Positions 18,156 through 22,732 of a stretch of DNA of 34,542 nucleotides are shown here, piece by piece. The notes under the pieces are model-generated. The model did no database searches, was not told where the DNA came from, and saw only the letters and a program-made list of their open reading frames with translations. A program made the position numbers and the translations under genes. Positions within the stretch are counted from its first letter, which is position 1; each line of letters begins with the position of its first letter. This DNA is from Mariprofundaceae bacterium (GTDB lineage Bacteria > Pseudomonadota > Zetaproteobacteria > Mariprofundales > Mariprofundaceae): positions 1 through 34,542 of the forward strand of contig JAUZQQ010000081.1 in the NCBI GenBank assembly GCA_030950905.1, given 5' to 3'.

Positions 18156-18173
18156 CATTACTCTACAGTAATG
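18156..18173. promoter_or_regulatory. 18-bp palindrome upstream of the signalling cluster (candidate operator)
   Basis: CATTACT-CTAC-AGTAATG, 7-bp perfect arms, ending 39 bp before the ATG at 18213; no T-tract downstream. Confidence 0.45.
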
Positions 18174-18212: not shown

Positions 18213-20345
18213 ATGACTGTGTCTACTGAAAATATCACACCCAAAAACAAGCATCGAAAAACAACAATAGATTTGTTGCATACCCATGATCGCATCATCG
18301 CTATTGTGTTGAATCATGTTAAAAGTGCCGTGATTTCAGTGGACAAAGCAGGTGGTATATTAACCGTTAATAAAGCGGCTTGCACCATTCTTGATTACCG
18401 TGAGGATGAGTTATTGGCGTTAAATTTGGGCGAGGTCTTAAACTTGCCACAAATCAATCGTCGTGGCATTGCTTTTTTGGTGGATCACCTTCATGATGGC
18501 AAGACCACTGAATTCACTTTTTCACCACAAGCCAAATTGGCGATGATCGCCAGGCTTTCTGTGACGGAAGCAGATGTCGATGGTGAAACCATTTACGTCG
18601 TTGTTTTTGACGATGTTACACCGCTTCGTGAGGCCGCGAACACCATCCGAAGTTTGGCCAGTTTTCCCGACGAAAGCCCCATGCCGATCATGCGTTATGC
18701 AGCCAGTGGCGAACGCCTGTATGCCAATGTTCCTGCTAAACAATTATTAAAACAAATTGAAGCAGACAAAATGAGCAATGATTGGCTTGATCTCGTTGCA
18801 TCGGTGCAGCAAAGAATGCAACAGATTGAAGCGAATTGGGTGATTGAAGGGCAGGTCTTTAAATGCCTTTTTATTCCTGTTTGTGATGAGTATGTTAATG
18901 TGTATTTGCGCAATGTTACCCAAGAGGTTGCCTTGCTCGATGAAATGGAACAATGCGTTAAAGCCCGTACCCGCGAATTGCGTGAAACCAATGAATACCT
19001 CAAAAAAGAAATCATGGTGCGCATGGAAACAGAAAAAAAATTGCGCCACCTTTCATTTAAAGACCCTCTTACAAACTTGGCCAATCGTCGCTTGTTTATG
19101 GAGCGATTAGAACATGCTATGCGTTTGTCTTTGCGAAACAATGACCGTTTGGCCGTGGTGTTTATGGACCTTGATCGTTTTAAGCTTGTGAATGATAGTT
19201 TAGGCCATGATGTGGGCGATGAACTGTTGATTCAAGTGGCTGATCGCCTCACCCAATGCCTGCGAAAAAGCGATACATTGGCACGCTTGGGTGGTGATGA
19301 ATTTGCTGCTGTTTTTGAACAAATTGAAACCAATGAAGACCTTGAACTTGTTGCTGAAAAAATTCGTTCGACATTGATCACGCCTTTTATCTTGGGTGAA
19401 GAGAAAGTTAGCGTGGGTTGCAGTATTGGTATTAGTTTTTTTCCTGATCATGGCACATCCATCAATAACTTGCTCAAAGCAGCCGACATTGCCATGTACA
19501 AAGCCAAAACAAAACGCAATACCTATTGTATTTATGAACAAGTTTTATCAGACAAAACAATTTTAAGCCAAGAATTAACCTATGCGTTGGAACGAAATGA
19601 GTTTTTTTTGATGTTTCAGCCTATTATTGATGTGAAAAATCGTAAAATTTCAGGCCTTGAAGCCTTAACTTACTGGAAGAATACGACACTGGGTACTGTC
19701 GCCCCGCACGATTTTCTTGCGATTGCCGAATCCAGTGGCCTGGTATCAATGATTGATATGTGGAAGATTGAAGCATGCTGTAAAGTATTGGAAGATTGGC
19801 AGCCATTATTGCCTTATGATATGATGTTAACCTTGGATGTCTCATTTGATATTCTGTTGCAAAAAGACTTTGTGCAGGTGCTTGCCAAATTATTAACAAC
19901 GCATAAGCTTAAAGCATCACAGTTGGAGTTTTCTTTTTCTGAATTTGCTGCAATGAAAGCATCAAAAAAGGCCAATCAAGCACTCGATGAATTGATCGAA
20001 CTGGGTTTGAAAATATCAATCAATAATTTTGGTGCGGGTTATTCTTCATTAAATCTCCTTCGTACGTTGCCCATTCAGGCCTTGCGTATTGATCGTACTT
20101 TTATTCGTGATTTAAACATCGATGAAAATGATCAGGTGATTGTAAAAATGATCATTCACTTGGCACAACTTTTGAATATTGACGTGGTTGCCGATGGTGT
20201 GGAAACAGATGAAAACTTTCGTTTTTTGCAAAAACTGGGCTGTCAATACATGCAAGGAACTTACTTTACACCCTTGCTGGATGGCAAAGCAGCAAGCAAC
20301 ATGGTTGCTGCGGGTATTTCGGCGGCATTGTTTCTTGATGTTTAG
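18213..20345 (+). CDS. PAS-PAS-GGDEF-EAL protein: probable diguanylate cyclase with degenerate EAL
   Basis: PAS-like regions ending FDDVTPLREAA and YLRNVTQEVALL; LSFKDPLTNLANRRLFMERL; GGDEF site LARLGGDEFAAVF with I-site RKSD five residues upstream; EAL region FFLMFQPIIDVKNRKISGLEAL with substituted catalytic residues. Confidence 0.92.
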   Translation: MTVSTENITPKNKHRKTTIDLLHTHDRIIAIVLNHVKSAVISVDKAGGILTVNKAACTILDYREDELLALNLGEVLNLPQINRRGIAFLVDHLHDGKTTEFTFSPQAKLAMIARLSVTEADVDGETIYVVVFDDVTPLREAANTIRSLASFPDESPMPIMRYAASGERLYANVPAKQLLKQIEADKMSNDWLDLVASVQQRMQQIEANWVIEGQVFKCLFIPVCDEYVNVYLRNVTQEVALLDEMEQCVKARTRELRETNEYLKKEIMVRMETEKKLRHLSFKDPLTNLANRRLFMERLEHAMRLSLRNNDRLAVVFMDLDRFKLVNDSLGHDVGDELLIQVADRLTQCLRKSDTLARLGGDEFAAVFEQIETNEDLELVAEKIRSTLITPFILGEEKVSVGCSIGISFFPDHGTSINNLLKAADIAMYKAKTKRNTYCIYEQVLSDKTILSQELTYALERNEFFLMFQPIIDVKNRKISGLEALTYWKNTTLGTVAPHDFLAIAESSGLVSMIDMWKIEACCKVLEDWQPLLPYDMMLTLDVSFDILLQKDFVQVLAKLLTTHKLKASQLEFSFSEFAAMKASKKANQALDELIELGLKISINNFGAGYSSLNLLRTLPIQALRIDRTFIRDLNIDENDQVIVKMIIHLAQLLNIDVVADGVETDENFRFLQKLGCQYMQGTYFTPLLDGKAASNMVAAGISAALFLDV

Positions 20346-20432: not shown

Positions 20433-21038
20433 ATGCAGAAAAATAACAACGTAACATTTTTTAGTGAAAACAGCATGGCTGATGTATTGCAACAAGAAAT
20501 AGCCCAACGCTTGCTTGCTATTCGCATGAATGCCGCATTGTATAGCCGTCGCAATGAAGGTCGGGAAACGCAACAGCTTGCCAATCAAGCTGTTTGCATG
20601 ACCGATGAAATCATACGACATTTTGAGTCTTTGCTAAGCATCATGCGGCTTCCCAAGCTGGCTTTCGATCAAGGCATTGTAAACGCTGTTTCAGTATTGC
20701 AAAAAGATATTGAATCCATGGGGGCATCAAAATGTATTTTTCATGTGCCACAAGAACTCGAAAAACTCTCTTCTTCTGATGCTTTTTTCCTCTTTCAAAT
20801 CGTGCACGGGATTGTTTTGCAGTTCATGCTGGATGCTAAAAAAGGTGCTGTGATAACCGTTGAATTAAAGCTTGATACCAAGCTGCAACAATGTGTCATG
20901 ACCGCTTGTATACCAGATGGCGATAAACAATTGCTGTTTTTGCGAGAAACATTAAAGGGGCGTATTGTCGGCGATGTCAATTACAACAGTGAAAGCTCGA
21001 AGTTACATCTCACCGTGCCAGTTTCTGGTTTGGCATAG
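20433..21038 (+). CDS. Degenerate NarX/UhpB-type histidine kinase homologue (putative pseudokinase, soluble)
   Basis: MADVLQQEIAQRLLAIRMNA resembles the HisKA_3 motif IARELHDEIGQRLTAIRMNA but with LQQ in place of LHD; MRLPKLAFDQGIVNAVSVL matches the LRPxxLDxLGLxxALxxL segment; C-terminus LRETLKGRIVGDVNYNSESSKLHLTVPV resembles the HATPase end. No TM. Confidence 0.65.
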   Translation: MQKNNNVTFFSENSMADVLQQEIAQRLLAIRMNAALYSRRNEGRETQQLANQAVCMTDEIIRHFESLLSIMRLPKLAFDQGIVNAVSVLQKDIESMGASKCIFHVPQELEKLSSSDAFFLFQIVHGIVLQFMLDAKKGAVITVELKLDTKLQQCVMTACIPDGDKQLLFLRETLKGRIVGDVNYNSESSKLHLTVPVSGLA

Positions 21039-21053
21039 CAAGAAGATACAAAC

Positions 21054-21707
21054 ATGGAATCACATATTAACCCAATAAAAATGATGATTGTTGATCATCA
21101 AACCATTGTCCAGGCAGGTTTAAAAAAGCTTATTGAAAGCGCCCCTGATATTGATGTTGTCGCCGTAGCTGATTCTGGTGAAGAGGCCATAGCCCTTTAC
21201 AAGAGCGATCCAGTGGATGTTTTATTAATGGAAATAAACATGCCAGGTCTTGGCGGTTTTGTTGCCTGCCAGCGTTTGTTGCGACTTAGCCCTTCTGTGG
21301 CTATTTTGTTGATCAGCATGTACCAAGATGATGATTTGGCGGCCAAGGCTTTAAAAATTGGTGCCAAAGGTTTTATCTGCAAATGTTGTCATCCTGACGA
21401 ATTGTTGCATGCTATTCGTATGGTAAAACAAGGGCGTATCTTTCTTGATGCCAAAACTGCACAATCCTTGGCTATTCATTCTGCAACGGGCAAAGCAGAC
21501 ACGCCGATTGATGTGCTGACACCCCGTGAATTTGAAGTTTTTGTATTGCTGGCACAAGGGCTTCCAGTAAAAGAGATTTATCCAAAGTTGTACCTGAGCC
21601 CCAAGACGGTGAATGTCCATCGTGCCAACATATTAGAAAAACTCAAAGCCAAAAATGCAGCAGAACTGGCACGTATTGCGATTCGTTATCATGTTATTGA
21701 GGCATAG
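21054..21707 (+). CDS. NarL/GacA(UvrY)-type response regulator with non-canonical receiver (Asp to Glu)
   Basis: Receiver MMIVDHQTIVQAGLKKLIE...VDVLLMEINMPGLGGF...LLISMYQDDD...GAKGFICK; LuxR HTH LTPREFEVFVLLAQGLPVKEIYPKLYLSPKTVNVHRANILEKL. Confidence 0.88.
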   Translation: MESHINPIKMMIVDHQTIVQAGLKKLIESAPDIDVVAVADSGEEAIALYKSDPVDVLLMEINMPGLGGFVACQRLLRLSPSVAILLISMYQDDDLAAKALKIGAKGFICKCCHPDELLHAIRMVKQGRIFLDAKTAQSLAIHSATGKADTPIDVLTPREFEVFVLLAQGLPVKEIYPKLYLSPKTVNVHRANILEKLKAKNAAELARIAIRYHVIEA

Positions 21708-21796: not shown

Positions 21797-22732
21797 ATGT
21801 CTGTACAGCAACACCACAGATTGATTATTTTAGGTTCTGGGCCTGCGGGTTATTCTGCTGCCATTTATGCTGCACGGGCGAATTTAAAGCCAGTGATATT
21901 GCAGGGTATGCAGCCAGGCGGGCAATTAACCACAACAACAGATGTGGATAATTACCCGGGTTACAAAGATGGCGTACAAGGGCCAAAAATGATGGAAGAC
22001 CTGCAAGCATAAGCAGAACGGTTTGGCACGAGCGTTATTTGGGATCATGCAAACAGCGTGGATTTGTCCGTGCGCCCATTTGTACTGAACACCGATCAAG
22101 GGAAATATACCTGTGATGCATTAATCCTTGCCACAGGCGCTTCTGCTAAATATTTGGGTTTACCCAGCGAAACAGCATTTTCAGGGCGTGGGGTATCGGC
22201 TTGTGCCACTTGCGATGGATTCTTTTACCGCAATCAAGAAGTTGCCGTCATTGGTGGTGGTGATACAGCAGTGGAGGAGGCTATTTATCTTGCCAATATT
22301 TGCAGCAAAGTAACCTTGGTTCACCGACGCGATGCACTGCGTGCAGAAAAAGTTATGCAAGAACATTTACTGGCTTGTGATAACATTGAAGTTGCTTGGA
22401 ACAGCGTTCTTGATGAAATAGTGGGGGATGATAGTGGTGTCACTGGCATGCGCTTGAGATCAACACTGGATAATAGTATGCGGGACGTGTCTCTGCACGG
22501 TGTCTTTATTGCGATTGGTCATCAGCCCAATACTGGCTTTTTAGATCAGCAATTGGCATGTGATGATGCAGGTTACTTAATCGTCAATGGCCGCAGTACA
22601 GAAACATCTGTTGCTGGTGTGTTTGCTGCAGGTGATGTGGCTGACTCTGTTTACAGGCAGGCAATCACGAGTGCTGGTGAAGGCTGTAAGGCAGCACTGG
22701 ATGCGGAGCGTTGGTTGACGCTGCAACATTAA
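21797..22732 (+). pseudogene. trxB: Thioredoxin reductase TrxB interrupted by one in-frame TAA
   Basis: ORFs 21797..22012 and 22058..22732 are in the same frame, split only by TAA at 22010-22012. Both halves are Trx[49 protein letters not shown], then [39 protein letters not shown] and [44 protein letters not shown] precedes the ATG. Confidence 0.9.

Follow-up and report, generated by a model that had tools for sequence, protein, structure and literature searches.

Pseudo-receivers and pseudo-histidine kinases are each already known (PMC12632262, PMC4395418, PMC4211667, PMC9491836). In the aspartate-less or pseudo-receivers RitR, ChxR, HP1043, NblR and BldM/WhiI the acceptor aspartate is replaced, most commonly by glutamate, the second aspartate of the DD pair (DD2) is lost, and the first aspartate (DD1), the lysine and the DNA-binding output are kept (PMC4395418, PMC12632262). 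The characterised aspartate-less receivers are greatly enriched for orphans. How pseudo-receivers are controlled is described as a mystery by a review from 2025, which counts a missing phosphosite in 2.0% of receivers (Asp) and in 0.3% of HisKA_3 domains (His) (PMC12632262). The pseudo-histidine kinases DivL, the pseudokinase version of ChrS and the RetS-type proteins have a histidine kinase fold without the normal phospho-donor chemistry and act via protein contacts on partners in which phosphorylation works (PMC4211667, PMC9491836, PMC12632262). Pairs of the HisKA_3/NarL family such as DesK-DesR and NarX-NarL have a canonical His, Asp and ATP-binding site, and in the solved complexes of DesK-DesR the DHp hairpin belongs to the receiver-binding domain. 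ChpT and Spo0B are DHp proteins that derive from kinases; their ATPase domain is degenerate, the His is kept and phosphate is passed on. Our searches, which covered open-licence papers, turned up no description of two cognate partners that are both dead, and none of a graded series leading down to a stand-alone hairpin.

The locus described here stems from the Mariprofundaceae, a family known for iron oxidation, and lies within a window of 34,542 nucleotides, the whole stretch of DNA that was analysed. The genus of the window (g1 in the following) comprises four sequenced species, the window's own and three congeners, all with the regulator gene, and was compared with a sister genus (g9) and a further genus (g4). 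In all four species of g1 the genes for a GGDEF-EAL protein, a pseudo-kinase and a pseudo-receiver regulator follow each other in this order, separated by short gaps or joined by ATGA overlaps, the latter in two species. The features in the window are:

18213-20345, plus strand: PAS-GGDEF-EAL protein of 710 aa, GGDEF and RxxD intact, EAL altered (domain searches, four-species comparison).
20433-21038, plus strand: pseudo-histidine kinase of 201 aa, DHp hairpin LQQEIAQRLLAIRMNAALYSRRNEGRETQ... kept, phospho-His changed to Gln, N and G boxes gone (profile, AF2, Foldseek).
20475-20645 (approximate extent), plus strand: conserved DHp hairpin inside the pseudo-kinase gene, core AIR...EGR...LA.. (alignments, DHp search).
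21054-21707, plus strand: NarL/FixJ-type response regulator with a pseudo-receiver and an intact LuxR-type HTH (Pfam, alignment, AF2, Foldseek).

The regulator of 217 aa is recognised by the Pfam families Response_reg (PF00072; 3.1e-25, 88.9 bits), so that the receiver fold as such is preserved, and GerE/LuxR HTH (5e-18). Its AF2 model has a mean pLDDT of 88 and matches LiaR, NarL and RcsB in Foldseek, and its closest database records are Mariprofundaceae MAGs. The protein is closest to the NarL/UvrY type. It had been called GacA/UvrY-like from its sequence, a description that holds at the subfamily level only, since the best curated family, UvrY/SirA/GacA, is matched with 178.4 bits, below the equivalog cut-off of 280; the regulator is accordingly assigned by sequence to the NarL/FixJ type, and the assignment does not extend to GacA itself. 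In an ungapped alignment with 13 homologues from outside the genus Asp14-His15 fall on the DD pair, with His15 at DD2 (VDHQ versus VDDH), and Glu60 takes the place of the acceptor aspartate. The D-H pair and the Glu are found in 4/4 species of g1, which share 81-87% identity in this protein, whereas all 13 outside homologues have DD (once DE) and the acceptor Asp. On the sequences compared, the receiver changes are therefore fixed in the window's genus. A shifted alignment or a deletion that would restore DD is ruled out, as the lengths match gap-free without any indel, and a sequencing error is ruled out as the cause because the four species agree. The switch positions Ser88, Phe107 and Lys110 are retained in the same alignment. 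The sequence-only reading had noticed the change from DD to DH, the Asp-to-Glu acceptor, the retained switch Ser and Lys and the intact HTH, and all of these were borne out. Around Lys110 lies a CKCC motif (21378-21389 of the window, codons 109-112), whose three cysteines, Cys109, Cys111 and Cys112, do not vary within the genus; of the homologues compared, none from outside has Cys109 or Cys111 and one has Cys112. A VpsT-type c-di-GMP-binding pseudo-receiver was considered and rejected, as the motif W[FLM][TS]R after the receiver, which we take to mark this type, is absent and the regulator is devoid of any Trp.

Adjoining the regulator gene on its upstream side is the gene for the 201-aa protein; that this partner kinase is dead as well had escaped the sequence-only reading. 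Pfam and NCBIfam searches with this protein gave neither a kinase nor a HATPase match. Its homology to kinases comes to light by comparison of profiles, as hhalign of the g1 against the g9 profile relates it with 97% probability (8.9e-11) to the canonical HisKA_3 kinases of the sister genus. Moreover, its AF2 model, for which the input alignment included complete kinases, has a pLDDT of 82 and retrieves DHp-CA structures of histidine kinases in Foldseek, with RetS-GacS first (1.2e-6), followed by CpxA, DesK and DesK-DesR, so that homology extends over the DHp and the ATPase domain. At the position of the phospho-His all four g1 species have Gln (LQQE or MQQE versus LHNE/LHDE). In the alignment the g1 proteins also lack the N box (QEALTNAxRHG) and the G box (SGxGLLGIxxRV). 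Judged from profile and model, the gene encodes the cognate HisKA_3 kinase, predicted to be dead. Both partners are thus predicted to be devoid of phosphotransfer, the kinase by Gln in place of His and the loss of the boxes, the regulator by the loss of DD2 and of the acceptor Asp. The HisKA_3/NarL pairs of the DesK-DesR and NarX-NarL type represent the parent family of both proteins and the closest solved structures for the kinase profile and the regulator, but the g1 pair lacks their canonical His, Asp and ATP-binding site. In contrast to the characterised aspartate-less receivers with their excess of orphans, the cognate kinase is adjacent here and dead, and unlike the partners of DivL, ChrS and RetS-type pseudokinases the partner receiver also lacks its acceptor. 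As in ChpT and Spo0B the DHp hairpin is kept and the ATP-binding domain decays; the His, however, is gone.

Is the locus maintained by selection? In the closest congener pair (L039/L040) dN/dS is lowest for the regulator (0.02, at a dS of 0.49) and for GGDEF (0.02), followed by the DHp part (0.06), EAL (0.10) and the ATPase remnant (0.39). The DHp value rises to 0.09 between the window's own species and L038, and that of the ATPase remnant ranges from 0.39 to 0.67. Pairs that are further apart have saturated synonymous sites, and amino-acid identities were compared for them instead; the order is the same, with 81-87% for the regulator, 57-79% for the DHp part and 14-24% for the ATPase remnant. 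Purifying selection acts strongly on hairpin and regulator and hardly at all on the ATPase remnant. The low dN/dS of the DHp part together with the unchanged identity order in distant pairs argues that the kinase relic is not a pseudogene. Given the 2.0% and 0.3% of receivers and HisKA_3 domains without phosphosite, it is unusual to find both losses in one adjacent pair that selection maintains in four species. The suggestion of the sequence-only reading that DNA binding is retained without normal phosphorylation control is well supported at the level of sequence, by the loss of the pocket in 4/4 species, an HTH that is 89-100% identical among them and the very low dN/dS.

Erosion of the kinase is also found in the sister genus. 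Where complete, the g9 orthologue is about 220 aa long, a soluble kinase of the HisKA_3 type encoded directly before a canonical regulator, and a complete kinase with its His is present in eight genomes (seven of g9 and one of g4). In seven other g9 genomes only a remnant of 65-78 aa (five genomes) or about 142 aa (two genomes) precedes the canonical regulator directly. This remnant is the DHp hairpin around ...AIRxAAQLMxRQSEGRQT..., its core reading for example LTAIHVAAQLMCRQSEGRQTYPVAKSIVMLTEQ, and lacks a His at the kinase position; in one of the eroded proteins (L060) a His is located one residue beyond it. The stand-alone hairpin proteins of 65-78 aa before a NarL-type regulator (L056, L061, L062, L063 and L014) were probably missed by annotation owing to their size. 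In the 36-codon core of the eroded g9 hairpins pS is 0.80 and pN 0.11, and the pN/pS ratio of 0.14 compares with 0.16 in intact kinases. As synonymous differences are near saturation and amino-acid changes few, it is the peptide and not the DNA that is kept, and constraint at the DNA level is ruled out. One clade of the regulator tree unites all four g1 rows (100/100) and another all seven eroded g9 rows (98/96); the distribution of intact and eroded kinases on this tree needs at least two changes, and so at least two separate erosions of the kinase. A search of 399 Pseudomonadota genomes with the g1 DHp query matched only this orthologous gene and only in Mariprofundaceae, and hairpin and regulator occur together in 19 of the 19 hairpin-carrying genomes. 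The Mariprofundaceae thus offer a graded series from a complete kinase through a His-less hairpin with a working receiver to a His-less relic with a dead receiver, by which a role of the DHp for the regulator apart from phosphate becomes testable.

How might a regulator without an acceptor be controlled by a kinase without phosphate to donate? The conservation pattern suggests contact, instead of phosphorylation, as the means by which the pair still signals. We propose, with a probability of roughly 0.6, a phosphorylation-independent pair in which the hairpin left over from the kinase docks on the receiver. The ancestor would have been an operon that encoded a NarL-type regulator together with a soluble HisKA_3 kinase. 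The g1 kinase has lost its His and the ATP-binding boxes and the regulator its DD2 and acceptor Asp, with the DHp hairpin, the receiver switch residues and the HTH being retained. A dimeric hairpin docking on the receiver may set dimerisation or DNA binding directly; this control could be activating or inhibiting, a choice on which the sequence does not tell. Glu60 may in addition bias the regulator towards the active state, with the caveat that an Asp-to-Glu change does not always mimic phosphorylation and Glu alone is often insufficient (PMC4395418). Docking is the simplest reading since the phosphate site is gone, HTH and switch residues are kept, and the surviving part of the kinase is the hairpin, which in DesK-DesR belongs to the receiver-binding domain. 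The docking model is at its weakest with receiver helix 1, the usual DHp contact: between the two genera its identity is 0.42, no higher than that of the receiver elsewhere (helix 5, 0.58; helix 4, 0.39), and it gives no clear docking signal; the hairpin could bind something else. That DHp hairpins of Mariprofundaceae have repeatedly been cut free as stand-alone, docking-only controllers, with both partners devoid of phosphotransfer in the window's genus, is a wider and more tentative proposal, for which we would put the odds slightly below even.

Alternatively, the regulator may act on its own, constitutively active, independent of phosphorylation and controlled by its own abundance only, with a kinase relic that makes no contact with it and owes its retention to something else, such as translational coupling or another partner. 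In aspartate-less receivers the acceptor Asp is most often replaced by Glu (26%), and some such regulators are constitutively active (PMC4395418); the ATGA overlaps suggest translational coupling. However, coupling alone would keep neither the hairpin peptide at saturated synonymous sites nor hairpin and regulator together in every hairpin-carrying genome, and we consider this explanation unlikely. The retained Ser88, Phe107, Lys110 and Asp14 could also mean that phosphorylation of the receiver persists via a shifted acceptor, with acetyl phosphate or another kinase as the donor, and substitutions of DD, T or K do not always abolish phosphorylation (PMC12632262). Here, though, a metal-ligand Asp and the acceptor Asp are both replaced, the acceptor loss is fixed in the genus and the partner kinase is predicted to be dead, which makes phosphorylation via a shifted site very improbable.

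The altered pocket might furthermore have become a new ligand site in this iron-oxidising family, with Asp14, His15 and Glu60 binding a transition metal and Cys109, Cys111 and Cys112 serving as a redox or metal switch. His15, Glu60, Cys109 and Cys111 occur in every species of the genus and in none of the 13 outside homologues, Cys112 is likewise invariant in the genus, and cysteine redox control is known from the pseudo-receivers RitR and HP1021 (PMC12632262). Yet Asp, His and Glu may be just common states of decay, with DD1 kept, DD2 lost and D changed to E, and such a metal or redox site seems rather improbable to us. Decay of the whole operon to a functionless state, finally, would fit the almost free ATPase remnant and the degenerate EAL domain, but frames are open in 4/4 species, dN/dS is 0.02-0.06 for regulator, DHp and GGDEF, and the HTH is identical in the closest pair despite a dS of 0.45, so that the selection test largely refutes this explanation, which we regard as barely credible.

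In the docking model the upstream GGDEF-EAL protein probably supplies a linked c-di-GMP signal. Scored against LEITES, DDFG, LKID and AEGVE, which we take to be the reference motifs of the EAL family, its EAL domain is altered in 4/4 species: Asn is changed to Asp (TLDVS), LEITES to LEFSFSE with the ES changed, DDFG to NNFG, LKID to LRID and AEGVE to ADGVE. Judged by these changes the protein is probably no phosphodiesterase and likely a cyclase or c-di-GMP receptor. The targets that the sequence-only reading had suggested for the regulator found no support. The window has four perfect 7-4-7 palindromes, against an expectation of 1.9; the one at 18156-18173 does not recur before the operon in the congeners and was rejected as an autoregulatory site, being not conserved and at chance level. 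A link to the csr system is not supported either: CsrA was found in one of the four incomplete genomes of the genus, being undetected in the window's genome (81.75% complete) and in two of the three congeners, and no convincing GacA box was found upstream of the operon, where the best matches have 3-5 mismatches of 12. On the 3' side of the regulator a thioredoxin reductase gene (21797-22732) has an in-frame TAA at 22010-22012, about a quarter in, which may be a base error of the MAG or mark a broken gene.
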